Shown here one piece after another: positions 9,853 to 52,714 of a stretch of 64,000 nt of DNA; the stretch's first letter is position 1; each line of letters starts with the position of its first letter. The notes under the pieces were generated by a model that ran no database searches, was not told the DNA's origin, and saw nothing but the letters and a program-made list of their open reading frames with translations. Location: the NCBI RefSeq assembly GCF_004339545.1, contig NZ_SMGD01000013.1:186001-250000 (forward strand). Direction: 5' to 3'. Position numbers and translations under genes: made by a program. The DNA is from Celerinatantimonas diazotrophica (GTDB lineage Bacteria > Pseudomonadota > Gammaproteobacteria > Enterobacterales > Celerinatantimonadaceae).

Positions 9853-10053
9853 AAAATTGCAACACCTGATTAAAGGTATCAGCATGTTTAATCCTTTAAA
9901 TCGCTAACACAACGAGCATGAACATTGATTTAATAGTCACTTTTTACTATTATTAAAACTCAGGGTGATGGTGTTCCACCTTTTTCTAACCGTCGTTTTA
10001 CAACGAATAATGACACCTGATTTTATCTTTAGGCAGAGCTATCAGGTATCTTT

Positions 10054-33807: not shown

Positions 33808-35751
33808 ATGATGAAGACAACAAAACAGACAGTGGCACAAGCCTTGGTTCGCTTCCTTGATAATCAATATCTGGAAGTGGATGGACAGGAAATCAAATTC
33901 ATCAAAGGGATCTTTGCTATTTTTGGCCACGGTAATGTCTTAGGACTGGGTCAGGCACTGGAACAAAATAGTGGCGATCTCCGGATACATCAGGGACGTA
34001 ACGAACAGGGGATGGCCCATGCAGCGATCGGTTTTGCGAAACAATCACTGCGCCAACAAATTTTTGCGTGTACGTCATCGGTCGGCCCCGGTGCGGCTAA
34101 CATGATTACGGCAGCTGCAACCGCAACTGCAAACCATATCCCCCTTCTACTACTCCCAGGAGATACCTATGCAACCCGCCAACCTGACCCAGTCTTACAA
34201 CAGGTAGAACAACCGCATAACCTAACTATCAGTACCAATGATGCATTTCAGGCTGTTAGTAAATATTGGGACCGAATTTCGCGCCCCGAACAATTGATGA
34301 CTGCCTGTATTAATGCCATCAGAGTATTAACCGACCCAGCCCAAACCGGAGCCGTGACACTGGCTCTTCCACAAGATGTACAAGGGGAAGCCTATGACTA
34401 TCCAGATTACTTCTTCAGCAAAAGAGTGCATCGCCTAGAACGACAGCCGCCGACTGACGCTATGCTCAGCGATGCTAAAAAGCTACTGACAAGCAAAAAA
34501 AGGCCAATCATCATATTTGGTGGAGGAGCTAAATATTCACTGGCAACCGCTGCTATTTTACAATTTGCCGAGCAATTTGATATCCCGATTGCAGAAACAC
34601 AAGCGGGCAAAGGCGCCATTTTGTCTGAGCACCCACTTAATGTTGGCGGAATTGGCGAAACCGGCTGTATTGCCGCCAATCAACTCGCCCCCAAAGCCGA
34701 TCTGGTGATCGGGATAGGCACCCGCTACACCGACTTCACCACTGCCTCTAAATGGATATTCCAAGACCCGGATGTCGATTACCTGAATATCAATATCAAC
34801 CGTTTTGATGCATTCAAACTAGATGGTGTGCAAATCATCGCTGATGCAAAAACCGCGGTTGAGTCGTTGCTCTCAGTACTTGCTAAAACAAGCTATAGCA
34901 CGAGCTGGGGCTCACAAATTCAGCAGGCAAAAGAGGACCTAGATGCAGAACGCGAACGGGTCTATCAAATCGAATTTACCGGAGACAATTTTATACCGGA
35001 AATCGATGACCATCTCCCCCGCGATCAGGTATACCGAGAATTCAAACAATTAACAGGCTCTGTGTTAACTCAAAGCCAAGTGCTGGGATTCGTCAACAAC
35101 AATATCGAGGAAGATGCAGTGATTGTCGGCGCATCGGGCAGCCTTCCAGGTGACTTACAGCGGATTTGGAAAACGCGCTCTTACAACAGTTACCATATGG
35201 AATACGGCTATTCCTGCATGGGCTATGAAGTCAACGCTGCACTGGGGGCAAAACTCGCCAACCCACAACGTGAGGTCTACTCGCTAGTCGGTGATGGCTC
35301 GTTTATGATGCTGCACTCAGAACTGGTTTCATCTATACAGGAAAACCAGAAAATCAACATCATACTTTTTGACAACATCGCTCATGGGTGTATCAATAAT
35401 TTACAGATTGGCAATGGCATGAATAGTTTTTTCACAGAATTCAGATTCCGTGATTCCAAAAACAACCAACTCGATGGCAAACTGATTCCGGTTGACTATG
35501 CCAAGATTGCCGAAGGATATGGCTGTAAAGCGTATCGAGTAACAAACATCGATGAACTAAAGCACGCATTAGCCGATGCCCAAATGCAAACGGTATCCAC
35601 ACTCATTGATATTAAAATTCTTCCTAAAACCATGCTCCACGGTTATCTAAATTGGTGGCGGGTCGGTTTAGCCGAACAATCTGACAAACCAGAAATAAGA
35701 GCCGCTTCACAACGCCTCAAAGCAACTATCAGCAAAGCTCGGCAGTATTGA
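33808..35751 (+). CDS. iolD: 3D-(3,5/4)-trihydroxycyclohexane-1,2-dione acylhydrolase
   Basis: Thiamin-diphosphate enzyme that opens the inositol-derived ring to 5-deoxyglucuronate. The 647-residue protein has the three ThDP-enzyme domains: N-terminal pyrimidine-binding domain ([13 protein letters not shown], with the catalytic Glu in [12 protein letters not shown]), central domain ([14 protein letters not shown]), and C-terminal PP domain ([34 protein letters not shown] followed by the Mg-binding Asn). Normal length. AGGAATATAG precedes the ATG. It ends at a strong terminator before the quorum-sensing block. Confidence 0.94.
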
Positions 35752-35789: not shown

Positions 35790-36134
35790 GTGTCTCATAA
35801 TACGGCTCTAAATGCTAAAAAATAGCGCCTATTTGCCAATTAACACAAACAGAATTGAATGTTTATTCATAACAAGAAGCACTAACTCCACTCAAACAGA
35901 TCTCTTTAGAGATAGCATGTAACCTTGCTCTTGAGAAAGGAAAGATCAAACTCGAGCTATAACTCTCAGCCAACCACTTCAACTGAGCGTATTGAATATG
36001 ACTCAAATTACTATCCATCCCCCTATGTCAGACAATAATCGTCAAAAATTACTTAGGATATATTTTGACAAACAAAATTGATAAATAGCTCACATATTCT
36101 GCATTTATAGTCATCTGTAACAATGTAAATGTTA

Positions 36135-36163
36135 TTGATTATTTCAAAACTAGAGATTAATAT
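36135..36163 (+). promoter_or_regulatory. Predicted sigma-70 promoter of the quorum-sensing genes
   Basis: TTGATT - 17 bp - TAATAT. Predicted transcription start near 36170, leaving a leader of about 200 bases before the ATG at 36371. Confidence 0.45.
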
Positions 36164-36370
36164 AGGACACGAAATATTGATAAAATAATCATTATAATAA
36201 TAACTAGCACACAATTTAGTCTAAATGTTAAAACGTTGATTCGAATAAACTGAGACAATCCAAATTTTGATTTACGACAGGATTCTATAACCCTATTGCA
36301 CAGTGGAAATCGTCAAAAAAATATGATAATAATATTATTAATATCATATTTCGCTGTGGAACAACGCAAA

Positions 36371-37522
36371 ATGTCAGCTATTTCTGTCGAATGCCCTATT
36401 GAAAACTCGAACACAAACCATAACCAATTTTTTCAGGATGTTCAGAAAAAATTTGAAGTAGATAACATCATTCATAGCTTTCAAGAGCTAGTCACCCTCA
36501 GGAAAAATGAACTGCTTCAGATTTACCCAGATTTAAGCAATGGCAATTTAGCAGCTATATTTGAGTCTTCTCGTTCGATCGCTCATATTCAGTCTCATGC
36601 AATAATTAGTATTAATTCCTATTGGCATCAGTTAGAAAAAACGGCTATTGAACTATTTGGTAATCTATTGGCTTGTTGGGGATATTATGAACGATTTCTT
36701 ATTTTAGATAAATACCAAGCATTACCTGTTTCATTATTTAATAATTTACCAAGAGATGAATTTGAATATAAATCAGAAATTGTAGAACATATTGAAAACG
36801 ATCCTCGTTATTTTTATACATTACACTGTAACACTCCATTATTGCTATCTGATGCTATTAAGTTAATTAACATTGAACTATTTATTATTGAATATAAATG
36901 GTATGAAATACTTTCTTTATTACAACTTTCACAAAGAGGTAACCATTTTCTACTCTATAATAAGAAGAGGACAATTCTAGTATCAACAAGCTTGATTCAA
37001 AATTGGAATGACAGAAAAAACTGGCTAAGTTTTGATCCTTTCTTTCAAGGAAAACAATGGATATCATGTCATCCTCTTGATGCTGGAAAATATTTATATG
37101 AAACAGGAATTTTTAATAAGAATATTATTTCTGAACAGAACTGTGAGAATGAAACATCTTTTTCAAATTATTTAGATGATTATGATGCAATTTGTGAGGT
37201 ATTAAGACTAACTGTTAGTGGACCTAAATCATTTCGATACTTTCTCTTGTATTTATGTCAGAAACATTTAATGAAACAACTTGTAGATTATGGAAAGCTA
37301 TTATCTTTCACTATCATTGAACAACCTGTTATGCTCAATTTATATAAAAAGTTATCTAGCACATGTTATCTAAGTAGATGTTATAATTATATAAACGGCT
37401 CTAATAATGCCACTTATAAGGGATTTTGGTTTACTCAAAAGTTACGAGATGAATTATCCAATATTGATTGGAAAAAATATAAATCACTCATCATTCAAAA
37501 ATCTAGGATAAATTTTGTATAG
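36371..37522 (+). CDS. luxM: LuxM/AinS-family acyl-homoserine-lactone synthase (probable)
   Basis: Predicted autoinducer synthase, 383 residues from the chosen ATG (MSAISVECP). LuxM/AinS enzymes make acyl-homoserine lactones from S-adenosylmethionine and acyl donors and are unrelated to LuxI. Support: length in the LuxM/AinS range, a C-terminal part with SGPKSFRYFLLYLCQKHL and SFTIIEQPVMLNLYKK that I associate with this family, and direct 8-bp overlap with a LuxN-like receptor kinase, the arrangement of luxM-luxN and ainS-ainR. Two further in-frame starts (36296 TTG, 36323 ATG) are possible. No LuxI-type motifs are present. A+T-rich compared with the flanking iol genes. Family assignment rests partly on context. 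Confidence 0.7.
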   Translation: MSAISVECPIENSNTNHNQFFQDVQKKFEVDNIIHSFQELVTLRKNELLQIYPDLSNGNLAAIFESSRSIAHIQSHAIISINSYWHQLEKTAIELFGNLLACWGYYERFLILDKYQALPVSLFNNLPRDEFEYKSEIVEHIENDPRYFYTLHCNTPLLLSDAIKLINIELFIIEYKWYEILSLLQLSQRGNHFLLYNKKRTILVSTSLIQNWNDRKNWLSFDPFFQGKQWISCHPLDAGKYLYETGIFNKNIISEQNCENETSFSNYLDDYDAICEVLRLTVSGPKSFRYFLLYLCQKHLMKQLVDYGKLLSFTIIEQPVMLNLYKKLSSTCYLSRCYNYINGSNNATYKGFWFTQKLRDELSNIDWKKYKSLIIQKSRINFV

Positions 37523-39980
37523 CAATTTTTTTGAAAACATTCTATACACTAAAGCAATACTATTGCTTAGTGTATCTATTTTTATTTGCATATGGTTAAT
37601 ATATTTTATATACCAGTTAAAAAATCAAAAATGGGAACAATTCTCTATAATATATATCCCATATATTGTATATACGTTATCTATTATCTTATGGATTGTT
37701 AGTAATTCTTATTTTCACACTAGGTTTCTTGTAATATATCCCAAACAACTAGCAATTAATTTAGATAAGGCTGCTAATATTTTTTCCTTTCTAGCCTTCA
37801 TTTCTATATACATATTCTCTTGCACATTTTTGTCCATTAGAAAGAAAATAAAGATAAAATCTTATCAAATATTATTAATTATATCTACCACAATATTTTC
37901 TATCTACGCTAATATATTCTCAAATTTAACAATTAGCGATATTAATATTATATCCCCTAGTGATTTTACTATCGATTTTGGTTCCGCGACACTTATATTT
38001 TATTCTATCCTAATAATTATCACTTTTTTATCTCTAATAAATTTATTTCTATCATCTTTCTCACCTAATAAAATAGAAAAAATAAAATCAATTTACATGA
38101 TAATAGGGATGATTACTTTCATGGTATCCACTAGTATTTTTCATATTATTATACCTTTAGCATTTAATGTATTCAAATACACTTGGCTACCTCCAGCTTT
38201 ATCAGTAATAGAATTAGTATTCATGGGATATGCTATTATTTGCCATAGATTTTATAGCTGGCGATATATACTATTTCTAATGATAAATTCTTCTATAATA
38301 TTATCTGTCTTTGTTATACCAATCCTTTTTATAAAAAAATATATCTTTTACGAGCCTAACATAGTTATTTCACTAATTTGGGCATTAATTTTTGGACTAT
38401 CTTGGAGGACAATTTGGAGATATACCGGGAAATATATTAGCTTGATTATATATGGACGGGAAAAAACACCAGTTTCAGAAATAAACACTCTCACTCATGA
38501 TTTTCAAATTTCACTTTCACAAGCAACTAAGAAACTATCTAAATTACTTCAAATAGACTCTAATTATATTTCCATATCCGATGCAAATACGTATCAATTA
38601 TATTCTTCTTATTTAACAAAAAATGACTCGGCATTATTAAAAGAAGAAGTTGAATATTATGCAGAAAATACACAAGATTTTAGTTTAAAGATGATTTGTG
38701 AACAAATGTCGCAACATGATTCTGCTATGGTTTTACCATTGTATGATAATGATCACATTTTAACACGTTTATTTATTACTCCACATAAAAAAAATGGATC
38801 AGTTTACTCTACTGAAGAAGTATCTGCCTTACAGCATTTACTTAAAAATGTTGAAAGCTATATTTATAGTGAATATCATATCAAAAAATCTCAAGCTATT
38901 GCACATTCTATTGCCCATGAGATGCGTAATCCATTGGCAAAAATACAAATACATCTCGAGAAAATAATTCAGTTAACAACAAGTGAGGATAAATATGTAG
39001 ACAAGATCACTAGTGAAATTGAGTATGCAAAAAAAGCGATTTATAATGGTAATCAGATAATTGATACAATTCTACAAGAGGTTCATCAACCTAGCATAGA
39101 TCCAAATTTAGTGAAACCTTATTCAATCCGACAATTAACCAAACAATCTATTCTAAATTATCCTTTTGAATCTGATAGTATTGCTGAACGTGTTCTCATT
39201 AATGAGAGCAATGATTTTTCAATAAATGTTCATAAAGTTCTCTTTGAATTCATAATTTTTAACTTATTACGTAATGCAATATATTATTTTCATGAATATC
39301 CTAATAGTTATATAGAAATTTATTTTGAGTCGACGGACAATTATTATTGTCAACTTAATTTTAAAGACTACGGACCAGGAATAAATTCAGTAACAAAGAA
39401 ACGTATATTTGATGATTTTTTCACCTTTGAAAAACGAGGAGGAACAGGGCTAGGTCTTGGGTATTGCCAAAAAGTAATGAAACTGTTTAAAGGTTATATA
39501 GAGTGTCATTCAAACTATGGGATGTATACATTATTTACCTTGTATTTCCCAAAATCCTCTATCCCTTTAAGCAGGTTAACTCAGTATGCTGATATTAATA
39601 AAGAAAAAAAACCAAATATATTTGGAACACATATAATGGTTGTCGATGATAATAAATCCCAAAGACTCCTTATTATTCTCTATCTAAAGAAAATGGGAGT
39701 TAAAATTATTGAGGCACAGAATGGTCAAGAAGCCCTTGAAAAAATTCATCAACATAAGTTAGATATCATCTTTATGGACATACAAATGCCTTTATTGAAT
39801 GGGTTTGATGCTAGCCATAAAATAAAAGAAATTTATCCTAAATTACCTATAATTGCTTTGTCTGGTGAATCGGATAAAGATGAAATACAAAAAATCAATA
39901 ACATTATGGATGATAGGTTAGAAAAGCCGGTAAGAAAGAATGACTTAATAAAAATTATTGATAAGTGGTTAAATCATTGA
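37515..39980 (+). CDS. luxN: LuxN-like hybrid histidine kinase 1 (autoinducer receptor)
   Basis: Membrane receptor kinase of 821 residues. About nine helices occupy residues 10-310, as in LuxN, with the segment TWLPPALSVIELVFMGYA near 223-240. The kinase has His468 in SIAHEMRNPLAKIQ, an N-box (NLLRNAIYYF), KDYGPGI, and GGTGLGLGYCQ. A receiver follows with phospho-acceptor Asp755 in IIFMDIQMP and a Lys in LEKP. It would pass phosphate through a LuxU-type protein to LuxO, neither in this window. The start is TTG at 37515, eight bases before the synthase stop, with AGGA six to seven bases upstream: translational coupling. A+T-rich. Confidence 0.88.
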   Translation: MYSNFFENILYTKAILLLSVSIFICIWLIYFIYQLKNQKWEQFSIIYIPYIVYTLSIILWIVSNSYFHTRFLVIYPKQLAINLDKAANIFSFLAFISIYIFSCTFLSIRKKIKIKSYQILLIISTTIFSIYANIFSNLTISDINIISPSDFTIDFGSATLIFYSILIIITFLSLINLFLSSFSPNKIEKIKSIYMIIGMITFMVSTSIFHIIIPLAFNVFKYTWLPPALSVIELVFMGYAIICHRFYSWRYILFLMINSSIILSVFVIPILFIKKYIFYEPNIVISLIWALIFGLSWRTIWRYTGKYISLIIYGREKTPVSEINTLTHDFQISLSQATKKLSKLLQIDSNYISISDANTYQLYSSYLTKNDSALLKEEVEYYAENTQDFSLKMICEQMSQHDSAMVLPLYDNDHILTRLFITPHKKNGSVYSTEEVSALQHLLKNVESYIYSEYHIKKSQAIAHSIAHEMRNPLAKIQIHLEKIIQLTTSEDKYVDKITSEIEYAKKAIYNGNQIIDTILQEVHQPSIDPNLVKPYSIRQLTKQSILNYPFESDSIAERVLINESNDFSINVHKVLFEFIIFNLLRNAIYYFHEYPNSYIEIYFESTDNYYCQLNFKDYGPGINSVTKKRIFDDFFTFEKRGGTGLGLGYCQKVMKLFKGYIECHSNYGMYTLFTLYFPKSSIPLSRLTQYADINKEKKPNIFGTHIMVVDDNKSQRLLIILYLKKMGVKIIEAQNGQEALEKIHQHKLDIIFMDIQMPLLNGFDASHKIKEIYPKLPIIALSGESDKDEIQKINNIMDDRLEKPVRKNDLIKIIDKWLNH

Positions 39981-39998
39981 CATAAATTATTTTATTAA

Positions 39999-40023
39999 TT
40001 AGAATAAATTATATATATTCTAA
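39999..40023. promoter_or_regulatory. Perfect inverted repeat between the two receptor-kinase genes
   Basis: TTAGAATA and TATTCTAA form an 8-bp perfect dyad with a 9-base spacer. It could be a weak hairpin or an operator for separate expression of the second kinase; no T-run is attached. Confidence 0.3.
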
Positions 40024-40076
40024 CAAGTTAGTTCATATGTTTACACTTATAATAAACACTTTCATATATTAAACAA

Positions 40077-42566
40077 ATGTCTTTTATTAATGATTTTAAT
40101 TTTAGATCTGTTTTACTAGTAATATCTTTGATTATTACTTTAAACTTTTTTATTTTTTTTATTTTTTTCATTAAAAATCGTGGGCTATATTTATTCCGAA
40201 CATTATATTACCCATGCATTATGTATGCCATATTTATAATTCTTTGGATATTAAGCAATATCTACTTTCATACAAGCTGGTTGGTTTCTAATGGAGAACA
40301 TGATGCTATCATATTAGCTAGGTTAGCTAATATATTCTCTTCTTTTTTAATTATTTCTGCTTTTACATATTCGTGTCACCTTAGTTCAAATAAAAAGGAC
40401 CGAAAAATTTCAAGATGGCAAAAATTAATTATCATTATTTTTTCAGCATTTTTTTTAATAATAAATCTCATACCTAATCTGACTATTACCAATATTAAAA
40501 TAGTAAAGGCTAGTTTTTTTATAATTAATTTCGGACCATACACAGTATTATTCTTTTTTACATTTGTATTAGTTTCATTATTAACAGCAATTAACCTTCT
40601 AAGTAACAAAAATAAAACAAAAATAAAAAGAATTGAATCTATATATATCGCGATTGGCTTCATTATCACCTCAACAACGACAATATTAACTAGCGTCATT
40701 GTTACATATGCTTGTCATGACTTTGCATTAACATGGCTTCCTCCAGCTCTATCTGTAGTTGAATTAATGATAGTCGGATACACAATGATTTATCATCGCT
40801 TCTATAGTTTTAAGTACCTATCTTATATTTTCTTAAATATTTTTTTAATATCTCTTTTATACTTATCTATTCTTTTTATAATTCTCTGGAAATTCCCCGA
40901 AAGCTTAAAGAACATAAGTGCTATCATTTGGACAATCAGTTATAGCGCTAACTGGAAATTAATCTGGAAATTCACTAGTATTTATATTAGTTTATGGCTT
41001 TACCATCAAAAAGAGCCTCCAGTTAAACAAATAAAAAAAATGTCTAAAGAATTTAAATCATCGACATTTAATGCAATTAAAAAGATTTCTGATTTGCTTT
41101 ATCTTGACCAAGAAACAATTCTTTTTTCAGATACTATAACCAACGATTTATATTATTCCTATTTATCAAAAAACAACTCTGCATTACTAATTGATGAACT
41201 TGAATATTATGTTGATCGCACTGATGATATACAATTAGTTAAGATCCGAGATCAAATGTCGTTAGATAATTCAGCAATTATACTTCCTTTATATGACCTC
41301 AATCATGTACTAAGTCGTCTATTTATTGCTTCACATAAAAAGAATGGGGCTCTATTTACTATTGAGGAAATATCTGCTCTTAAGCAATTACTAAAAAATA
41401 TTCAAACCTATATTTTTAGCGAATATCACATCAAACAGTCGCAAGCCATCGCACAATCCATTGCCCATGAAATGCGCAATCCACTTTCTCAAATTCAGCT
41501 TCGGCTGGAAAAAATTGACAGTGAATCCACTAATATGGATTGCTATTTAGAATTACATCATGAAATTACGCAAGCTAAAAACGCCATTTATCATGGAAAT
41601 CAAATTATCGATTTAATGCTTCAAGAAGCAAATCAACCCACTATTGATCCACAATCTATTCATCCTTATTCAATCAGTCAGCTTGGACAAGCGGTCATCA
41701 GCGACTATGCTTTTGATAGCGAAATCACTCAAAAACGGGTCACATTCAATCATCAGAGTGATTTTACGATTGCAGTAAATGATGTTTTATTTAGCTTTAT
41801 TTTATTTAACCTCCTTCGCAATGCCATCTATTACTTCAATGAATATCCTGAAAGTACTATTGAGATCACGCTAGAGATCGCAGAACAAGAAAATTTATTA
41901 CATTTCAAAGATTATGGCCCAGGCATTGAAAAACATATACAACAACGCATTTTTGATGACTTCTTTACCTACCAAAAAAGTGGCGGGACAGGCCTTGGAT
42001 TAAGTTATTGTCAACGGGTAATGAATTTATTCAATGGCTATATTTCGTGTGATTCAGTTTTTGGTCAATACACAGTTTTCACGCTTCATTTTCCAAAAGT
42101 AGATCAAGCCCCCATGGCATTGCCGGAAATGCAAGAATCATCGTTGGCGACTTCTCCCCCAAAGGCTAAATCGGGTTCTGACTCTGTGATTTATGCACTG
42201 GTTACTGATGACAATCGGTCACAGCGTCAACTGCTTAGATTTTATCTTGAAAAATTGGGAATCAACGTTGAAGAGGCTGAAAATGGCAGACAAGCAATCG
42301 AAAAGGTGCAACGCTGCCCTCTTAACCTAGTTTTTATGGATATTCGAATGCCTGTCATGGATGGCTTCCAAGCCTGTAAATCGATTAAAGCACTCTACCC
42401 AACACTCCCCGTTATTGCGTTTTCAGGCGAAACCGAAGATGAAACTATGTTGCAAATCAACCAGCACATGGATGACCGTTTAGCCAAACCGACGACTAAA
42501 GAGCACTTAGAAACTATTTTAACAAAATGGGTTCCCCACTTTACCTCCATCTCAAAAATAGAATAA
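40077..42566 (+). CDS. luxN: LuxN-like hybrid histidine kinase 2 (tandem paralogue)
   Basis: Second receptor kinase, 829 residues, same layout as the preceding gene: about nine helices (10-310), TWLPPALSVVELMIVGYT near 219-236, His464 in SIAHEMRNPLSQIQ, NLLRNAIYYFNEYP, KDYGPGI, GGTGLGLSYCQ, and a receiver with Asp755 in VFMDIRMP. All catalytic residues are intact. The C-terminal half is less A+T-rich than the N-terminal half and uses different codons, and a polar linker (about 675-700, ending SPPKAKSGSDS) precedes the receiver. The gap of 96 bp to the first kinase holds an inverted repeat. A tandem duplication with later divergence of the sensor part is the simplest history. Confidence 0.88.
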   Translation: MSFINDFNFRSVLLVISLIITLNFFIFFIFFIKNRGLYLFRTLYYPCIMYAIFIILWILSNIYFHTSWLVSNGEHDAIILARLANIFSSFLIISAFTYSCHLSSNKKDRKISRWQKLIIIIFSAFFLIINLIPNLTITNIKIVKASFFIINFGPYTVLFFFTFVLVSLLTAINLLSNKNKTKIKRIESIYIAIGFIITSTTTILTSVIVTYACHDFALTWLPPALSVVELMIVGYTMIYHRFYSFKYLSYIFLNIFLISLLYLSILFIILWKFPESLKNISAIIWTISYSANWKLIWKFTSIYISLWLYHQKEPPVKQIKKMSKEFKSSTFNAIKKISDLLYLDQETILFSDTITNDLYYSYLSKNNSALLIDELEYYVDRTDDIQLVKIRDQMSLDNSAIILPLYDLNHVLSRLFIASHKKNGALFTIEEISALKQLLKNIQTYIFSEYHIKQSQAIAQSIAHEMRNPLSQIQLRLEKIDSESTNMDCYLELHHEITQAKNAIYHGNQIIDLMLQEANQPTIDPQSIHPYSISQLGQAVISDYAFDSEITQKRVTFNHQSDFTIAVNDVLFSFILFNLLRNAIYYFNEYPESTIEITLEIAEQENLLHFKDYGPGIEKHIQQRIFDDFFTYQKSGGTGLGLSYCQRVMNLFNGYISCDSVFGQYTVFTLHFPKVDQAPMALPEMQESSLATSPPKAKSGSDSVIYALVTDDNRSQRQLLRFYLEKLGINVEEAENGRQAIEKVQRCPLNLVFMDIRMPVMDGFQACKSIKALYPTLPVIAFSGETEDETMLQINQHMDDRLAKPTTKEHLETILTKWVPHFTSISKIE

Positions 42567-42879: not shown

Positions 42880-43776
42880 ATGAACACTGATAAAGTAAAA
42901 CTCGCTATTGCCCCAATCGCCTGGACTAACGATGATCTCCCAAGTCTGGGGGCGGAAAATACCTTTGAACAATGTGTCAGTGAAATGGCTCTGGCTGGTT
43001 TTACCGGTTGTGAAGTTGGCAATAAATACCCTAAAGATCCGGTCGTTTTGAAAAAGCAATTATCGATGCGAGGACTACAAATTTGTAATGCCTGGTTTAG
43101 TACGTTTTTCGCGGATGGCAAATTAGATGAAACAATCGCTGGCTTTATGGACCATATGAATTTTCTTCATACGATGGGTGCAAAAGTCATCGGTTGCTCT
43201 GAGCAAAGTGGCAGTATTCAGGGAACCGATCGTCCAATCTTTGATGATAAACCCACATTTAATGATGAGCAGTGGCATCTAGTTGCCAAAGGCTATAACA
43301 AACTTTCGGAAATGGCCGCTGAAAAAGGCATGTCAGTCTGCCTTCATCATCATATGGGCACTGCCATTCAGACGCCAGCTGAAATCGACCGTTTTATGGC
43401 TGAAGTCGAGCCATCGGTGGGGTTGTTATTAGATACAGGCCATATCTATTACTCTGAAGGCAATCAGACTGTCATTATGGATATTCTCAATCGCTATATG
43501 AATAGAATTCCACATGTCCATTTAAAAGATATTCGAGAGGAAAAACGTCAACAAGTCATCAATGAACACCGCTGTTTCTTAGATGGTGTCCGCCTTGGCG
43601 CGTTCACGGTTCCAGGAGATGGCGTCATCGATTTTAAGCCGATTTTTGACGCTTTGGATAAAGCAGGTTATGAAGGGTGGATGGTTGTTGAAGCCGAGCA
43701 AGACCCCAGTGTCGCAAACCCGCTCGAATATGCCTTCAAAGCTCGTCAATATATTCGTGAAATCGCTCATATCTAA
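42880..43776 (+). CDS. iolE: myo-Inosose-2 dehydratase
   Basis: Second step of inositol catabolism: dehydration of scyllo-inosose to the trihydroxycyclohexane-dione used by IolD. The 298-residue protein is a xylose-isomerase-like TIM barrel: [18 protein letters not shown] at the start, [52 protein letters not shown], and [11 protein letters not shown]...[12 protein letters not shown] with metal ligands (Glu, Asp, His, Glu). Normal length. It is the only iol gene separated from the rest by the quorum-sensing block. Confidence 0.94.
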
Positions 43777-45043: not shown

Positions 45044-46150
45044 TTACTTCACTAATCGCAAATACGGACGGGTATTCGCTGTTTTTGCTTGATTCATATC
45101 TGTGTTACCGGAGTTAACCAGCCCAATACTAAACAGCAAACCACTCAACTCATCTAAGGGGATGTGTAAAAGTTGAGCTAATTTCGACATCGATATTCCA
45201 TCTTCTCGTAACGAAAGCAGAATTTTCTCAATTACTAACGAGCGTTCTCGATCGATACCATCGATTTCTCTTGTTCTAAGCCCCATCTTCCCAGCGTCAA
45301 TTATTAGCGTTTTATACTGCCATTCAGATAGCACACCTACATTCTTCATTTGAACAATGAGAGCCATCGCTGACACTTTCCAGTTGTGCTTTAACTTCAA
45401 GACAGAACTGAGATTAATGAGCTTGTTTTTATAAGGTAAAACAGTTTCTTTAGGCATTAACAAATTAGCTGCGAAAGAATCTGCTTCAGCCTCGATATCT
45501 TTACCTTGAGGAACACCATGTGCATGTAGCAATAAATGACCAAGTTCATGGGCAGCATCGAATCGACTACGTTCCCCTGATTTTTGAGTATTCAAAAAAA
45601 CATATGGGACATTATCTTTCCAAAATGAAAAAGCATCTACGTCTTGAGTATTTTCTGACAACGAAAAAACTCTAACTCCATTTTTTTCCAACAAATGGAT
45701 CATGTTGCTGATACTTCTATGCCCTAAGTCCCATTCCGAACGAATAGCACTAGCCGCTGATGATGGTTCAATGCCTCGGTAATCAGGAACATTTGTTTTA
45801 GGCAAAGAAAACTTATTGTCAAAAAAATTATTAATTAGTACGCCTATTTCACCAGCAGCAACCGCGGCATGCATCTGAGATGCTTTCATGCGTTTTAACG
45901 CTCTGAAAGAGACTGTATCTCTGTCCACTGGTTCCAAATTATCCGTATCCATAAAAAACTCTTTAGGATAATTTAAGGCAACAGCAAAGGCTGATAATGT
46001 TTCCTCGGGTGGGTTATAGCGACAAGGCTCTTTCTCATACTCAGAAACCATTTTGGTACTCAGACCAACTTTTTCAGCTAGCAGCTTGAGTGTATATTGT
46101 CTTCTTAATCTTGCTAACCGCAATCTAGCAGGATTGAACTGTTCAAACAT
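45044..46150 (-). CDS. HTH domain plus ImmA/IrrE metallopeptidase
   Basis: 368 residues. An N-terminal Xre-type helix-turn-helix (about 8-65; KLLAEKVGLSTKMVSEYEKE) is joined to an ImmA/IrrE zinc peptidase (about 130-260) with the active site HELGHLLLH (His201-Glu-...-His205) and the third-ligand region EAEADSFAANLLMP. Such proteins cut or inactivate a partner repressor or toxin in mobile elements and stress responses. It lies 2 bp after a 229-residue gene on the same strand, forming an operon. The target is unknown. Confidence 0.88.
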   Translation of the reverse strand: MFEQFNPARLRLARLRRQYTLKLLAEKVGLSTKMVSEYEKEPCRYNPPEETLSAFAVALNYPKEFFMDTDNLEPVDRDTVSFRALKRMKASQMHAAVAAGEIGVLINNFFDNKFSLPKTNVPDYRGIEPSSAASAIRSEWDLGHRSISNMIHLLEKNGVRVFSLSENTQDVDAFSFWKDNVPYVFLNTQKSGERSRFDAAHELGHLLLHAHGVPQGKDIEAEADSFAANLLMPKETVLPYKNKLINLSSVLKLKHNWKVSAMALIVQMKNVGVLSEWQYKTLIIDAGKMGLRTREIDGIDRERSLVIEKILLSLREDGISMSKLAQLLHIPLDELSGLLFSIGLVNSGNTDMNQAKTANTRPYLRLVK

Positions 46151-46152
46151 GT

Positions 46153-46842
46153 CTATATTTTCTCTGCGTTAAAAAATTCCGAATCATCCGTGAATTCAGG
46201 GGTGGAAATGTCATCAAATCCGCCATCAAATGGGATCGCTGGCAGTATTCTTCGTTCTTGCCAGTCAGAAACCTTGACTTTCCCTTCTCGAAAAAACTCA
46301 GTAACGTCGATGCTTGGGAGCGATAATTCAGCACGGATCTCTTGTTTTTCTTTATCAAGATAAAATAGAAACACCCATGTCTGGTGGGAATCAACAGGAA
46401 CTGGCGAACTGGGTTCTTCATCTATAGATTGGAACAGACTAAGATTTGTACCATGCAATAGCCGCTGGGACTGATGGCCTTTAGAATTTTTTGTGCTTGG
46501 CTGAATACCATCTTCACGTTCCAACCCCGTATTATTATCGCCCCCCATGATAACTATAGTCATCCCTCTTTCCGAATTGATTAGTACCGGGTTTCCTTTC
46601 AATTGATCTTTCTCCCAGCCTTGTCCATGCTCTACGGCTAACTGTCTGAACACCCCGACAATTTCTTGCCATGCTCTAGCTCCAGCAGTAGTAACTGGAT
46701 GAAACTCTGTGGCCTCATCATGCTTTTGCTTACCTGCGAGTAACGCATCTTTAAATGATTCGGCCGGAATACCGAATAACTCAAGGAGTCTATCCACATT
46801 AGTTACATCTAAATTCTGGACCCGAGTACTGAAATTATTCAT
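46153..46842 (-). CDS. Unknown protein, operon partner of the ImmA/IrrE peptidase
   Basis: 229 residues, acidic, no signal peptide or membrane helix, no family I recognise. The N-terminal part (LLELFGIPAESFKDALLAGKQK, AGARAWQEIVGVFRQLAVEH) is helical; the C-terminal half (QTWVFLFYLDKEKQEIRAEL, LSLPSIDVTEFFREGKVKVS) looks like a beta-rich domain. It ends 2 bp before the ImmA/IrrE gene, so the two are almost certainly cotranscribed and may act together, for example as a regulated target or adaptor of the peptidase. Confidence 0.75.
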   Translation of the reverse strand: MNNFSTRVQNLDVTNVDRLLELFGIPAESFKDALLAGKQKHDEATEFHPVTTAGARAWQEIVGVFRQLAVEHGQGWEKDQLKGNPVLINSERGMTIVIMGGDNNTGLEREDGIQPSTKNSKGHQSQRLLHGTNLSLFQSIDEEPSSPVPVDSHQTWVFLFYLDKEKQEIRAELSLPSIDVTEFFREGKVKVSDWQERRILPAIPFDGGFDDISTPEFTDDSEFFNAEKI

Positions 46843-47091
46843 AACAAGAAACCTTAAATTAGAGATTTTATCGCCACTTCCGATTTTACCCTACTTTCGG
46901 AGGATAAAACAAGAACCAAGGCTCCAGTTATTAATTTTTCTAAACATATTTTATTGGCTTACTAGGTAACGCAAGGATCGCCCATTAGAAGTTTCCAAAT
47001 TACAAAATAAAATATTTTCGCTTGCTTACCGTCCAGGCTAGAGCAAACATAGGAGTACACTAATGTTTTTTATGTCAGGTTGGAGAAAAGT

Positions 47092-47403
47092 ATGGGAATT
47101 GGTTCAGACCTAATGGTTAAACAAGCTGAAGAAGAACACGAAGAGGCGCTATATAACGAGATAATTCTTGACGCAGCTATCAGAATTGTGGTTAACGAGG
47201 ATAGTAGGAAAGCGGCTATGGATGCCGCAAGGGAGTTCGTCCAAGCGCAACATGATGCTATCAGGCAGAGTGAATATGACGATGTTTCTAATACAATTCA
47301 TTTCTGGAATAAATCTTTAAACGGTATTCCTATGCCTAAAGGAAAACAAGAATCACAAGTAAAAGCTATCGCACGGGAACTTAAAGAGCAATTTCCCCGA
47401 TAA
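47092..47403 (+). CDS. Small helical protein of unknown function
   Basis: 103 residues from the ATG at 47092, which has GGAG six bases upstream; the frame is open four codons further back to a TTG. Predicted mostly helical and charged (KQAEEEHEEALYNEIILDAA, DAAREFVQAQHDAIRQSEYD). No domain recognised. It is divergent from the ImmA/IrrE operon and converges on the antirepressor remnant; a hairpin follows. Confidence 0.6.
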   Translation: MGIGSDLMVKQAEEEHEEALYNEIILDAAIRIVVNEDSRKAAMDAAREFVQAQHDAIRQSEYDDVSNTIHFWNKSLNGIPMPKGKQESQVKAIARELKEQFPR

Positions 47404-47431
47404 TTTCTCGACTAGAAAAACTTGTGTCCTA

Positions 47432-47451
47432 TCCCCTCCTTTAGGAGGGGA
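47432..47451. terminator. Bidirectional hairpin
   Basis: TCCCCTCC / GGAGGGGA stem with a 4-base loop, between the ends of two convergent genes (28 bp and 13 bp away). A-rich on the plus side, so on the minus strand the hairpin is preceded by TTTT rather than followed. Confidence 0.4.
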
Positions 47452-47464
47452 AAAGCGGAAGTGG

Positions 47465-48388
47465 TTAGTGGCGGCCTAGGTAGTGCTGGGCTTGGCGGGC
47501 GCAATCTCGGGTGAGTTTGGCTAAGTTTTCTAACTTCTGCTCTTTCATTTCTAGGTGATGGCGATGCGCCTGCAATTCGAAACGGGCAGCTTGGACGTTG
47601 AAGCCGGCTTTTTCGAGTTCGAAGAGTAATTCTGAGATTGCAGAGGGTGAATCGGAGGCATCGCCGTAGAGAAATTTAGCAGGAAAGTTCCACGGTTTGT
47701 CGAGGTCTACATGATCGAGCCCCCTCGCCTGGAATATTTTCTGGTATTGCTGCCACCAACTCATCGGGAAGTTCAGGTTGAGTTTGGGCGCGGCCAGCTC
47801 GGCTTGTTTGCCGATAAAATCCCCTTCTATGGCATCGAGATAATCGATGGCTTCACTCACTTGTTCTGGCAATAGCTGGTTGATATGTTGGACATCGAAG
47901 CGTTGATGAACGAGTTTCCAGATATCTGGATAGATATTGGCCACGCCAGTGGTAATGAGCCGTTCGACGGTTTGGCGCAGTGGGGTTAATTGTTCGGCTG
48001 TGCATTGGCGTGTTTGAACACTGACATCTGATTTAGCTTGCCGACTAAAGTAATAATCTTCTAACTTTTCGAACACATCCCATGCCTGTTCGGTTTCAAG
48101 CATTTTTGCATGCCTAGCCGCACCGCGTTCAGTCCATAGGATCACTCTACGAGCATGTTTTTTAACTAACCCGATAGAATCGGGTCTGTTCTTAAAACTT
48201 CTTAATTCAGAATGAGTTAATTTAAAGTAATACTTACCAGCGATAAAACGATTCTGATTATTCAGTTAATTATCTGAAATATTTTTCGATTCAATCGCAT
48301 ACAACTGCGCAAGCTGTTCTGAAGTTAAAACAGGAATGAATTTATAGGAGACAATTGATAGGTTTTCTACACTAATTTCATTAGTCAT
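47465..48388 (-). pseudogene. Phage antirepressor (ORF6N/ORF6C type) with in-frame stop
   Basis: Reading from the ATG at 48388 (GGGGGTTATC upstream) gives an ORF6N-type DNA-binding domain (TSEQLAQLYAIESKNISDN), a TAA at codon 41 (48266-48268), then in the same frame LNNQNRFIAGKYYFKLTHSE, the domain's continuation, ILWTERGAARHAKMLETEQA, and from about residue 145 an ORF6C-like C-terminal domain (IYPDIWKLVHQRFDVQHINQ). The single stop sits inside the conserved domain; the remainder is intact to the end. A GTG at 48145 could restart a C-terminal product of 226 residues. Preceded by a C4-type antisense RNA. Confidence 0.75.
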
Positions 48389-48442
48389 GATAACCCCCAA
48401 GGTAGTATCGGGCTTTAATCACCACCAACGGGACCAATCACT

Positions 48443-48519
48443 GGCGGTGAACTGAACGAGGTTGGTCCTACCGTTACCTTGGAAACAACCAGCCAATGAA
48501 GGCTGCCTCATCCCGCCCA
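48443..48519 (-). ncRNA. C4-type antisense RNA controlling the antirepressor
   Basis: The minus strand carries the hallmarks of phage P1 C4-type RNAs upstream of an antirepressor gene: a closing stem GGCGG / CCGCC, an internal hairpin CAGCC-TTCATT-GGCTG, then GTTTCCAAGGTAACGGTAGG followed by ACCAACC. CCAAGGTA inside the motif is exactly complementary to TACCTTGG, which directly precedes the GGGGGTTATC-ATG translation start of the antirepressor, as expected for the C4 mechanism (RNA pairing blocks ribosome binding). Boundaries are approximate. Confidence 0.65.
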
Positions 48520-48792
48520 CCATAATGACGTGCTGAACTTGAATAAAAAAACCAGCAAAAAGCTGGCATTGCATGCCAAGGAAAATAAACGGGGGACCAA
48601 TCCCGACACTGGGATTTTGCCAGTGAGTCTTGAAGCTCATGAAAGTTCGGGAGAAGAATAAAGAATATTTGTATAAATATAATACTTAGTTAGCATTCCC
48701 AAAGATGAATAAATAATCTTATATAAATAAACAATGCGTTAAAACAAAAGGATCGTTATCTACCATATCAAACAAAATAAGTCAAATTTTTA

Positions 48793-48820
48793 TTGACAAA
48801 TATGCTGTTCTATGTAATAA
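48793..48820 (+). promoter_or_regulatory. Strong sigma-70-like promoter
   Basis: TTGACA - 16 bp - TAATAA (with an overlapping TAATAT). It points toward the 71-residue membrane protein 340 bp downstream, leaving a long leader or a small RNA. Confidence 0.45.
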
Positions 48821-49164
48821 TATAAATGTGGGTTTTTCCCTCAAAATAAAGATCATAACCAGACAGAATCATTCTCACCAGAACGAAACCATACCACCGA
48901 ATAGGTGCTTAGTTTCTATTTGATGTATATAACTAGTACAGGAGAAATAAATATGAATAAATAAAGATAATCAATATTTAATATACGGTGATATATAATA
49001 TCACTTATATTATGGAAAACCATCAACAATAGTGAATTTAATTTGCTATCAGTTCAGATTTCTAGCTCTAAAAAACCGGCTTTGATTAATTGACCAACCT
49101 ATTCCTAATAAATATGTGTGCTTTTAGTTATCTTAGCCATTAAATTTGAAAGACCGGAGTACAA

Positions 49165-49380
49165 ATGTCATGTAGAAAAATAAATGAATTTTTAAAAAAA
49201 GTAAAAAAAAACTTATCAACCTTGGAATTTAAAGATATATTGAGTTTATCAATGAATATGATACCATTCTTTCTCAATACATCTTCAATAACTCTAACAC
49301 TTATATTTATAATTATTTTATTATTATTGATAATAATGTATCTTTATCCACAATGGATATATTTAATGTTTAGAAAATAA
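49165..49380 (+). CDS. Small single-helix membrane protein
   Basis: 71 residues: a lysine-rich N-terminus (KINEFLKKVKKNLS), an amphipathic stretch, and one long helix (about 40-60, LTLIFIIILLLLIIMYLYP). CGGAGTACAA before the ATG is a good ribosome-binding site. Very A+T-rich. No family recognised; location in an island with toxin and immunity genes fits a small toxin, immunity or phage-derived membrane protein, but nothing shows which. Confidence 0.5.
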   Translation: MSCRKINEFLKKVKKNLSTLEFKDILSLSMNMIPFFLNTSSITLTLIFIIILLLLIIMYLYPQWIYLMFRK

Positions 49381-49931
49381 CTTATTTTAATAAATTATCC
49401 ACTAAACGGTCAAAACTAATTTTTTCATTTTCGTTATGTTAGATAATAAATCCAAGCTCTTAAATCAGTCGCATTAAGTTGCGTATGTCCGTTTATTTGC
49501 CGAAAGTGTGGTTCTACCAAAGTGTTATTTAAAAATTCCCCGAGCTACAGGGTATACTATATTTTTAAGCTTCATTCTCTGAGATGGTACTGAAAGGTTT
49601 AGCAAACAGCGGATTTATTCCCTAAAAAGGCGTTTTATTCGTCGCCCTCCCGACATAAATCGGGCGTGATCACACAGCCGACCACAAAAATCAGGCATAA
49701 AAAAGCCAACACTAACGGGGTTGGAGCATTCGCTTGTAAAGAGGTTCTGACGCCTCACATCGAAAAGATAGCTGATTGATCTGGAGTCAACTTATTATAT
49801 TAAAATTCCAAACTGTGGGCCGAAATAATTAATATCATCTAATATCGAAATACTATAAAACATGCTAAATATAGAAACTAAATGAAAAAAGACTATAATA
49901 TTTTAAATATTCAATATCATATGAGTCAGAT
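49381..49931. other. 551-bp gap in the island
   Basis: Includes a small CCCGA-N6-TCGGG hairpin near 49653. No gene or recombination site recognised; no integron attC structure was found. Confidence 0.4.
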
Positions 49932-51083
49932 ATGAAGATAACAGAACAAACAAATATAACCAATAATAAGGATTCAGATTTATTTTTACGATGTCTCTGG
50001 AGTCAATTTAGAGCATCATTTTCTAATTATGGATGGTGCTACTCAGGCTTAAAATATCAAACCAATTATATGCTAGGTTGGTTGGACTTAGGTCTAATAT
50101 CTCCAATAGAAATTTCTTTTGACTATAAAAGGAAAGGCATAATAAATAATATTTATATCTCTATTGATGAGGTAGACGCCACTGACGAAAATATAAAAAA
50201 AATAAAAAAATGCATTTCAAATTCAAGAAAAACAAAAAAAATCATGACTAAATTAGCTGCCAAAGGTCCTATATTTAGTCACTATATCCTACCTTCTTAC
50301 TCTGGGGAAAATTTTTCAATAAAGCCAAATGAATCATATAATGAATTTACTTTTTCTGTTACTAGTTTTGATACTATTGACTGGCAACAAGAAGCCGATA
50401 TGCGATCTTACGAAATAATTAACTTAGTATCCATGGCTCTGGCCACCCCATTATTTAGAAAAGAAGAGTTGAATGTAGAGGGTAAATATCATTTAGACAA
50501 AGAAGATCTGGACTTTTGTTTAGAAAACCTTGAAGTAATCGATAATTTTTTATCTAAGTATAGCTATCATGATAAATTTTATGAAAATATAATAGAAGCA
50601 TCTTCATTATTTAAAGATTCATTAAAAATAGTATTAACCAATAAAGACTCAGAACTACTCTATTTTCATAGATTAGATGGTAATAGAGTAAATATTGGTT
50701 TAGAGATATCTATAGCCACAATAATAAGCTGCCTTGAAATAATTTCAGATATTGAATCTGAACCTATTAAAAATTGTAAAAACTGTGGGCAACCACAATA
50801 CAAGATTTCGAAAAGAGTTAAAGACTTCTCATTAAAACACGGTTCTGAGCTAATAATGTCCACCATAAGAGAGGGGTACAAACTCAGATCCAAAGTTCTA
50901 CACGCAGGACTTTTTTTAGGAAGAAATGGCTTTCTAAAATCTCCTTTTAACCCTAGATTTGACTATCCTTCAAAAGGAGGACTAGTCAAAAGTATGAATT
51001 CAATCCCAGAAGTATTACTGATTAATACTCGAATTATCTTTATGAATTATTTAAAAGAGCTCAATGCTCGGAATGATCTGTGA
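49932..51083 (+). CDS. HEPN-like protein, candidate defence or abortive-infection gene
   Basis: 383 residues, very A+T-rich. Near the C-terminus a CxxC (Cys282, Cys285 in NCKNCGQPQYKISKRVKDF) is followed by REGYKLRSKVLHAG, where Arg319 and His324 form the R-X4-H catalytic motif of HEPN ribonucleases; this Cys-plus-HEPN ending recalls ApeA-type proteins. The N-terminal 250 residues contain no domain I know. No obvious partner gene is adjacent. The start ATG at 49932 has a weak upstream site; position between phage and toxin genes supports a defence role, which remains inference. Confidence 0.65.
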   Translation: MKITEQTNITNNKDSDLFLRCLWSQFRASFSNYGWCYSGLKYQTNYMLGWLDLGLISPIEISFDYKRKGIINNIYISIDEVDATDENIKKIKKCISNSRKTKKIMTKLAAKGPIFSHYILPSYSGENFSIKPNESYNEFTFSVTSFDTIDWQQEADMRSYEIINLVSMALATPLFRKEELNVEGKYHLDKEDLDFCLENLEVIDNFLSKYSYHDKFYENIIEASSLFKDSLKIVLTNKDSELLYFHRLDGNRVNIGLEISIATIISCLEIISDIESEPIKNCKNCGQPQYKISKRVKDFSLKHGSELIMSTIREGYKLRSKVLHAGLFLGRNGFLKSPFNPRFDYPSKGGLVKSMNSIPEVLLINTRIIFMNYLKELNARNDL

Positions 51084-51222
51084 CACGTCACGCTCCCTTA
51101 CCTCTACCACCATTTTCCCTCTGCTGTTGGTGGTGAATTATGGGACTAAAAATTTTTTATCCCGTGGTGTAGACGCATATGAAGCATTTAGGCGCAAGAA
51201 AGGCCCCGTTCGCAACACGTTT
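51074..51222 (+). repeat. Island repeat, copy R2
   Basis: Direct-orientation copy of R1 (44215-44385), beginning TGTGACACGTCACGCTCCC and ending ATTTAGGCGCAAGAAAGG. It lies between the HEPN-like gene, whose stop it overlaps, and yoeB. Confidence 0.7.
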
Positions 51223-51284
51223 GTGTAGATGTAAAAACGACTCAAAAACGCTGAGTGTTAAAACGGGCTTTGATTGAATGCTTC

Positions 51285-51539
51285 TTAGTAGTGATACCGA
51301 CATTGAGCAATCAAAACTTCGTTTTCTTTAGCTTTATAAACAAGCCGATGTTCTCTATTAATCCGTCGAGACCAATAGCCTGTCCATTGATGTTTTAATG
51401 GCTCAGGATCACCAATGCCTTCAAATGGTTCTCGACTAATTTCTTTAATGAGCTGATTGATACGTTTTAATATCTTTTTATCGGTTTGCTGCCAATATAA
51501 ATAATCTTCCCAGGCACTGGATGCCCACACTAACATCAT
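51285..51539 (-). CDS. yoeB: YoeB toxin (ribosome-dependent mRNA endonuclease)
   Basis: 84 residues, the normal length. The RelE/ParE-superfamily fold is evident, with WASSAWEDYLYWQQTDKKIL at the start, the catalytic region LKHQWTGYWSRRINREHRLV, and the C-terminal CRYHY whose His83 and Tyr84 correspond to the catalytic end of E. coli YoeB. It overlaps the yefM stop by four bases (ATGA). The pair is complete and looks functional. Confidence 0.95.
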   Translation of the reverse strand: MMLVWASSAWEDYLYWQQTDKKILKRINQLIKEISREPFEGIGDPEPLKHQWTGYWSRRINREHRLVYKAKENEVLIAQCRYHY

Positions 51540-51790
51540 TCTTCAATCAGCCCCTTTTCACTGCCATGACCACCTTCTAGTTCTGAAATGGCCGCGTTCA
51601 GCCGCTGTGCGTTCTTAGGGCTCGCCATAAGATAGGCAGTCTCTTCATACGCTTTGAAATCTTCAACGCTCATGACAATCGCAGGCTTACCATTTTGTCG
51701 AGTGATCATCACCGGCTTGTGGTCATCGTTCACATCATCAAGCGTTTTAGCTAACTGCGCTCGAAATTGTGAATAGCTCATTACATCCAT
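51536..51790 (-). CDS. yefM: YefM antitoxin
   Basis: 84 residues from the chosen ATG (51790). The N-terminal DNA-binding Phd/YefM domain (MSYSQFRAQLAKTLDDVNDD) is followed by PVMITRQNGKPAIVMSVEDF and the toxin-binding tail (EETAYLMASPKNAQRLNAAI). It neutralises YoeB and represses the operon. Several in-frame ATGs lie close together; GAGG is six bases before the one chosen. Confidence 0.95.
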   Translation of the reverse strand: MDVMSYSQFRAQLAKTLDDVNDDHKPVMITRQNGKPAIVMSVEDFKAYEETAYLMASPKNAQRLNAAISELEGGHGSEKGLIEE

Positions 51791-51805
51791 CATACACCTC
51801 ATTAT

Positions 51806-51843
51806 AAGTACGGATTTTTGTACTTGTACGTATTATGGTACGG
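51806..51843. promoter_or_regulatory. Predicted YefM-YoeB operator
   Basis: AAGTAC at 51806-51811 is inverted as GTACTT at 51820-51825, and two further GTAC cores follow. YefM operators in E. coli are built on palindromes with a TGTACA core. Confidence 0.5.
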
Positions 51844-51864
51844 ATATGAGGTTATCACAAGTCT

Positions 51865-52362
51865 TCAATTAAAAATTGATAGCGCTATTCCATTCCCCCC
51901 ATCGAACTGCTTCGCCAACCGATTAAGAAATGCCTGTGCACTCTCATCGGCGTAATCACAGTGCTCGATTTGAATTTTTTGTAATCAAGGATGCACAAAA
52001 ATATCGTAGCCAAACGGAGTGACTACATCAGAGACGATTTGCGCCAATGTGGTGTTGTCCCTGCTGGCCGATTGGCGCTTTAAAAACTCGCTGGAATCAG
52101 CCATAAAAGGCGCAACAGTCAGCTCGATTTGCACCGCTCGTGGCTGCATAGCGGCCATGCGTTGGGTGATTTGAAAGACATCGCGCTTGATATCATCAAG
52201 GTACACGGTGTACTGCTCGCCTTTCAGTGGAATGCCGTCTATATTCGATGAGTTAATAGTAAGTGAGAGCGAATCGCCCTTAGTACTGTTACCATCTTTC
52301 AGGTGCCACGATTTTAAACGTGCAAGCAGCAGCTCGGTATTCTTGGCGGTTAGTTTAAACAT
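51865..52362 (-). pseudogene. Phage late-control protein D (gpD-like) fragment with internal stop
   Basis: From the ATG at 52362 the frame gives MFKLTAKNTELLLARLKSWH, SLSLTINSSNIDGIPLKGEQ, RAVQIELTVAPF and NTTLAQIVSDVVTPFGYDIF, the pattern of a P2-type gpD/VgrG-N-like tail protein. A TGA follows at residue 127; the same frame then continues LQKIQIEHCDYADESAQAFL NRLAKQFD-like sequence, exactly what gpD has next, before a final stop at 51865. About half of a full gpD is missing. It lies downstream of the effector-immunity pair, in the same direction. Confidence 0.75.
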
Positions 52363-52429
52363 AGGGAGCTCACACATAAAAAGGCCAATAGGAAGTGGCC
52401 TTGGGGGGAATGAATGATAAAGAGAAGAA

Positions 52430-52714
52430 CTAAAATTTACCCATTTTTTGGTGATAAAAATATCGGCATCTTTTTTGTCCATATAATATAGAAATTAGTC
52501 CCATAACAGCATATATCCCGAGCGTAAAATATTTGTGATTAATCATCAAATCACCAAGATAACTCAAATTAAAAGTAACTAATGCAAAAAAAATAAACAC
52601 AGTAACTATGGCTGCATAAAAGGCAGCTGCTATAATCGCACACGTTTCAGCACCTTGGACGGTAATATTTCCTCGTTTAAGAAAATAATAAAGATTAAAG
52701 AAGATCTTCCACAT
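52430..52714 (-). CDS. Small membrane protein, probable immunity protein
   Basis: 94 residues with two hydrophobic helices (about 25-50 and 62-82). It starts inside the end of the 305-residue gene (20-bp overlap), implying translational coupling, as is usual for toxin-immunity pairs. Its N-terminus (MWKIFFNL) and first helix (FFALVTFNL) match the orphan proteins near 44.4-45 kb, so the island has at least three members of this family. The role is inferred from organisation, not from a known family. Confidence 0.65.
   Translation of the reverse strand: MWKIFFNLYYFLKRGNITVQGAETCAIIAAAFYAAIVTVFIFFALVTFNLSYLGDLMINHKYFTLGIYAVMGLISILYGQKRCRYFYHQKMGKF

Follow-up and report, generated by a model that had tools for sequence, protein, structure and literature searches.

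A 64,000-nucleotide stretch of the Celerinatantimonas diazotrophica genome (contig NZ_SMGD01000013.1, positions 186,001 to 250,000, hereafter the window) encodes an acyl-homoserine lactone (AHL) synthase of the LuxM/AinS type followed by two complete LuxN-type receptor kinases. The three genes, here called luxM, luxN1 and luxN2, lie in this order on the + strand, between iolD-like and iolE-like genes in the list of open reading frames (ORFs) of the window. The host genome (3.97 Mb in 19 contigs) belongs to a family other than that of Vibrio. To judge from the genes that it carries, both receptors probably feed a LuxU–LuxO relay but differ in the AHL, or in the AHL level, to which they respond, a reading that we prefer while holding it well short of certain.

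The initial annotation of the window, made from the letters alone, proposed a LuxM/AinS synthase beside two LuxN-like receptors, and profile comparison shows the likeness to LuxM/AinS clearly. The luxM product (36371..37522, + strand, 383 amino acids) matches the Pfam family AHL_synthase (PF17327) at 299.9 bits (E 4e-89; cut-off 25) over profile positions 6–376 of 381, and is the only such match in the host genome. We assign it to the LuxM/AinS-type AHL synthases and predict that it makes AHLs. Its start is the ATG at 36371, the program-made ORF beginning at a TTG at 36296. It does not match the LuxI-type family Autoind_synth, its Pfam scan giving AHL_synthase and a single sub-cut-off domain of unknown function; a genome search for LuxI also returned nothing, though without any match to serve as a positive control.

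In an AlphaFold2 model of LuxM (pLDDT 88.7) the nearest to residues 126–370 among the solved structures compared are nonetheless LuxI-type AHL synthases. RpaI, BjaI, MesI, LasI and TofI match with Z scores of 13.3–13.8 (root-mean-square deviation 3.0–3.3 over 165–181 residues), EsaI with Z 12.0 and other GNAT enzymes with Z 12.0 and below. With Foldseek alone no match falls below E 2e-3, and comparison of LuxM with solved structures by sequence gives no significant match. Reviews, including the available parts of PMC5007282, place LuxM and LuxI in separate families, and among the papers listed in a literature search no title or abstract dealt with a fold likeness between them.

The genes luxN1 (37515..39980, + strand, 821 amino acids, TTG start) and luxN2 (40077..42566, + strand, 829 amino acids, ATG start) encode hybrid histidine kinases. 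For both, the best NCBIfam model is LuxN (NF041945), matched over nearly the full length at 784 bits (E 1.6e-235) and 761 bits (E 1.4e-228), respectively. These scores do not reach the cut-off of 1550 bits for Vibrio equivalogs, and we class both proteins as LuxN-like in sensor, kinase and receiver rather than as equivalogs of Vibrio LuxN. Their phospho-accepting residues are exactly those that had been named from the translations, His468 and Asp755 in LuxN1 and His464 and Asp755 in LuxN2, and the N, G1 and G2 ATP-binding boxes are intact in each. The nine helices initially ascribed to the sensors are found in an AlphaFold2 model of LuxN2 residues 1–336 (nine long helices, mean pLDDT 86), whereas a simple hydropathy profile of either receptor has eight peaks. 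The LuxN sensor has no significant sequence match among solved structures, and the Foldseek matches of the LuxN2 sensor, which are all to seven-helix receptors and weak (no better than E 1.2e-3), were not used.

The TTG start of luxN1 at 37515 lies 8 bp inside luxM and is preceded by AGGA. An overlap of this length recurs at 11 of 20 measured luxM–luxN junctions and in the one congeneric genome sampled. A gap of 96 bp separates luxN1 from luxN2. The three ORFs, the length of the synthase, the overlap and the presence of a second intact kinase thus agree with the initial description.

LuxU, LuxO and a HapR/LuxR homologue had been named as partners to look for elsewhere in the genome, and all three are present. 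Neither of the outcomes that would have refuted the initial proposal, a first gene unlike LuxM/AinS or a genome lacking the LuxU/LuxO relay, is thus observed. LuxO scores 669 bits against NF041946, and its gene adjoins luxU. LuxU (112 amino acids) scores 61 bits against NF041948, with LuxU as its best PDB match (7e-8), and the TetR-type HapR/LuxR regulator matches HapR in the PDB at 5.9e-45. The genome further encodes LuxS and a CqsA that exceeds the curated cut-off (543 against 428 bits). The cqsA gene stands tail to tail with a gene for a 658-residue hybrid kinase, CqsS by position, whose best NCBIfam model is LuxN at 180 bits. Directly 3' of luxO–luxU (L144:5916-9241) come a gene for a 407-residue protein that by eye looks FIST-like and one for a hybrid kinase, which in NCBIfam is best matched by general hybrid-kinase models; the two proteins may provide LuxU with another input.

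The receptors share an origin. In a tree of 52 full-length LuxN sequences all four receptors from this genus fall into a single clade (support 100/99), within which the LuxN1 proteins of both species group together (100/99), as do the LuxN2 proteins (100/100). Since each receptor pairs with its counterpart across species, we conclude from the tree that the two arose by a duplication predating the split of host and congener. A kinase-only tree also unites the four (100/98); sensor-only trees do not group them, and an approximately unbiased test, run post hoc, does not reject their union (p 0.16). The four fall within a 15-row clade (100/100) that includes the group of Vibrio sp. MEBiC08052 and other Vibrionaceae genomes, and the LuxM tree shows the same kinship, joining host, congener and MEBiC08052 (100/100). 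In the full-length tree the pair of the MEBiC08052 group and the host pair are not orthologous copy by copy; to judge from the sensors alone, the two pairs may still go back to the same duplication.

Between host and congener, LuxM is 50.4% identical, LuxN1 51.1% and LuxN2 60.7%. The corresponding figures are 87.9% for the iolE-like product, 84.5% for the iolD-like product (last 484 amino acids), 81% for LuxO, 88% for LuxR, 85% for LuxS and 65% for LuxU. Divergence is uneven within the receptors: LuxN1 is 45% identical in the sensor and 51–55% in the kinase and receiver, and LuxN2 50% and 72–80%, respectively. In both species G+C content is 25–31% in luxM, luxN1 and the luxN2 sensor, as opposed to 37–43% in the luxN2 kinase and receiver. 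The part of the locus that faces the signal thus evolves quickly, and the output half of luxN2 is held. The fast divergence may reflect selection or relaxed constraint, between which two genomes with proteins about 50% identical do not discriminate.

These features suggest the following scheme. One LuxM/AinS-type enzyme would make an AHL, and two LuxN-type membrane hybrid kinases, products of a tandem duplication, would both watch for AHLs. At low cell density each receptor would autophosphorylate and pass phosphate from His to Asp, then to LuxU and on to LuxO; ligand would turn each into a phosphatase, so that the HapR/LuxR-type regulator could act. We infer the kinase/phosphatase switching and the flow through LuxU by analogy with studied Vibrio systems, as described in the available parts of PMC11837519. 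The diverged sensors would differ in tuning, either in the AHL that they recognize or in the level of a common AHL to which they respond. Of the two, LuxN1 would more probably sense the signal made by the cell itself, because its gene is coupled to luxM by the 8-bp overlap and because it retains two ligand-sensing residues (below), and LuxN2 the likelier differently tuned one; this division of labour, like the ligands themselves, we only infer.

Positions invariant across 15 aligned LuxN proteins are present in both receptors, which are predicted to bind AHLs. In V. harveyi LuxN, H210 senses the C3 hydroxyl of the ligand and L166 its chain length, according to a review (PMC5007282, in its available parts). 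LuxN1 keeps both residues, and LuxN2 has F163 and S206 at the equivalent positions. In the congener, positions 166 and 210 are I and S in LuxN1 and F and H in LuxN2. Serine at 210 occurs in only two of 34 tabulated LuxN proteins, one from the host and one from the congener. These substitutions fit different tuning of the two receptors.

Several observations weigh against this interpretation. Receptor pairs are unlike at position 210 in just three of the 12 tabulated (though in eight of the 12 at 166), the H/S split at 210 is swapped between LuxN1 and LuxN2 in host and congener, and with sensors that are only 40% identical a difference at two positions does not exceed background divergence. The relay proteins score below their Vibrio equivalog cut-offs (LuxU 61 against 140, LuxO 669 against 800). 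A Qrr 23-mer, with up to three mismatches allowed, has no match in the host or the congener, compared with four in a Vibrio, and Rfam searches of the stretches around luxO found no Qrr, although a diverged one may have escaped these searches; this leaves the step from LuxO to the regulator putative. The system is also known here from its genes, and in the published two-LuxN case, that of V. coralliilyticus, the authors detected no AHL and were unable to say whether the species produces one (PMC11837519, available parts).

Set against different tuning of the receptors, the alternative that we take most seriously, while thinking it unlikely, is that both sense the same self-made AHL at two thresholds set by unequal affinity or abundance, and thereby widen or sharpen the response. 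The single AHL_synthase match in the genome and the retention of the invariant positions by both copies would suit it, as would unequal amounts of the two receptors, which a separate luxN2 promoter could bring about. A possible sigma-70 promoter for luxN2 (39977..40005, + strand; TTGACA-17-TAGAAT) matches the consensus at 11 of 12 positions, where about 0.005 such sites are expected per 100 nucleotides on the same strand (100 shuffles). Promoter-like sites show no excess over the whole region, however (37 found, 45.8 expected), and the best site in the congener's luxN1–luxN2 gap matches at only 10 of 12. Moreover, LuxN1 and LuxN2, which are 47% identical overall, differ more in their sensors (40%) than in their kinases (55–59%), beyond what a pure change in affinity seems to need.

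Less credible again is a mixed LuxN1–LuxN2 pair, heterodimeric or cross-phosphorylating, with a ligand response of its own. Five Vibrionaceae genomes carry a receiver-less LuxN beside luxM and a full LuxN (loci L190, L191, L193, L197 and L198), an arrangement in which the partner's receiver would be needed, unless the short protein reaches LuxU through another kinase; both host copies have receivers and could act alone. We give equally little credence to the idea that luxN1 is decaying and that luxN2 has taken over its role. The luxN1 gene is AT-rich throughout and diverges fast over its full length (kinase 51–53% identical between species, compared with 77–80% in luxN2), but its frame is open and its catalytic residues are intact in both species, as in luxN2, and the neighbouring luxM diverges just as fast (50%), as would be the case if signal and receptor diverged together. 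Least probable, to the point that we would be surprised by it, is that LuxN2 or both receptors signal to a phosphotransfer protein other than LuxU. The genome does hold six Hpt matches and the two kinase domains are only 55–59% identical, but LuxN is the best model for both receptors, and LuxU is the sole Hpt match of the six in a short frame (118 amino acids), the others lying in frames of 688–948 amino acids.

On balance the sequence evidence favours different tuning of LuxN1 and LuxN2, without choosing among the two-threshold, heterodimer and self/foreign options that the initial annotation had listed. More speculatively, and with a chance that we put clearly below even, the locus may be a fast-diversifying 'pherotype' module in which synthase and first receptor change together, and the second receptor, with a conserved output and a sensor free to vary, hears a foreign or ancestral AHL. 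If so, a single operon would let members of a lineage that fixes nitrogen and is possibly associated with plants read both their own population and others, and receptor duplication would be a recurrent route to new ligands for LuxM/LuxN systems.

The initial picture of known loci, with one receptor each, has been overtaken. A paper of 2025 describes a locus with two LuxN homologues in V. coralliilyticus OCN008 and BAA-450 (PMC11837519), the only report of a second or duplicated LuxN that we found in the open-access literature. Among 53 named luxM loci, those of Vibrio sp. MEBiC08052 and V. coralliilyticus ATCC BAA-450 are the two that have a pair of full LuxN genes next to luxM; LuxN is split into two frames in three (L089, L094 and L101) and cut by a contig end in one (L102). 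None of 18 Vibrionaceae luxM loci from an order-wide search has two. Of 329 Vibrionaceae genomes, a sensor-only profile detects LuxN in 153. Two or more matches occur in 21 genomes, and we examined the gene layout in 17 of these. The order luxM–luxN–luxN is present in five (MEBiC08052, V. coralliilyticus, G611, G667 and G527). Three have luxM–luxN with a receiver-less second LuxN, two have a receiver-less LuxN upstream of luxM–luxN, and three have luxM–luxN–luxM–luxN (L194–L196; second luxM product 302–382 amino acids), with LuxN grouping with that of Aliivibrio. One has a LuxN pair without luxM, and three show no second LuxN within the stretch. We therefore reject the notion that the layout is unique to the host genome: it is shared by the congener, by V. 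coralliilyticus in print and by at least five of the 153 LuxN-bearing Vibrionaceae, a count that includes V. coralliilyticus, and is not new as such.

The V. coralliilyticus locus (L082) resembles that of the host in having a single LuxM-like synthase gene and, downstream of it in the same orientation, genes for two full LuxN kinases, with a similar identity between receptors (about 46%, as reported in PMC11837519, against 47%). Its receptors are separated by 481 bp rather than 96 bp and, unlike the host pair, are not sister copies: the LuxN2 sensor groups with those of V. atypicus and V. sinaloensis, and the LuxN1 sensor with the V. tubiashii group. Identity between them rises from 31% in the sensor to 62% in the kinase and 77% in the receiver, as if outputs had been homogenized or a sensor swapped. 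Deletion of luxN in this species raises reporter light (PMC11837519, available parts), as expected from the loss of a kinase in this pathway. The MEBiC08052 group (with G611 and G667) shares the luxM–luxN–luxN order and the 8-bp overlap with the host. It contains the named LuxM closest to the host's (52%, MEBiC08052) and is the nearest kin of host LuxM and, with others, of host LuxN. It differs in its site, which in MEBiC08052 is, by eye, beside rpsA-like and cytidylate-kinase-like genes. The LuxM–LuxN system of V. harveyi/campbellii and AinS–AinR of V. fischeri use the same synthase and hybrid-kinase families and a LuxU–LuxO relay, but have one receptor where the host has two. Host LuxM is 25–31% and LuxN1 32–39% identical to 11 Vibrionaceae rows that do not include V. 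harveyi/campbellii or V. fischeri.

A luxM gene scores above cut-off in 20 of 394 genomes of the order, 18 from Vibrionaceae and two from this genus; our sample of the host family comprises 12 genomes in four genera. We found no account of LuxM outside Vibrionaceae in the available parts of PMC8636270, PMC2475663 and PMC13220807. The present analysis adds a LuxM/LuxN circuit, complete with LuxU, LuxO and a regulator of the HapR type, from beyond that family, in the genus of the seagrass symbiont 'Candidatus Celerinatantimonas neptuna', together with the retention of a two-receptor locus in both genus genomes and the fast divergence of its synthase and sensors. Since its two receptors share an origin and stand next to a single synthase, the locus makes ligand change in membrane AHL receptors directly testable. 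The Celerinatantimonadaceae unite Agarivorans, Aliagarivorans and Alginatibacterium with Celerinatantimonas, and nitrogen fixation is called prevalent among them (PMC8636270, available parts). The same source reads high luxR transcription in the N2-fixing 'Ca. C. neptuna' as a sign of cell-to-cell communication. The nifH gene is present in the host (437.8 bits) and the congener (435.6 bits), and the host is probably a nitrogen fixer.

Upstream of luxM, a conserved block (36132..36165, + strand) may be a regulator site; it is the best stretch by eye in two aligned congeneric upstream regions, chosen without a statistic. It contains TTATTGAT, which we take to resemble a LuxR/HapR half-site. The neighbours outside the system, an iolD-like gene on the left (33808..35751, + strand) and an iolE-like gene on the right (42880..43776, + strand), are ORFs named by eye without a family search. 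In the congener the same three genes occupy the same site, adjoining the iolD-like gene, with all domains kept in both copies. A search for an empty iolD–iolE site, as a sign of insertion here, found a close iolD in none of the 10 other family members examined.

Elsewhere in the window, positions 45044-52482 are probably a prophage remnant. Three of six scanned proteins match phage families (a regulator, an anti-repressor and a tail protein), and positions 48440-48626 hold matches to C4 antisense RNA and isrK RNA. A fluoride riboswitch match (39.5 bits, 9955-10026) lies just 5' of an ORF at 10054 whose product is DHH-type pyrophosphatase-like by eye. Two very similar GNAT-like acetyltransferase genes, again named by eye, stand in tandem at 3698-4489 and 4785-5510.

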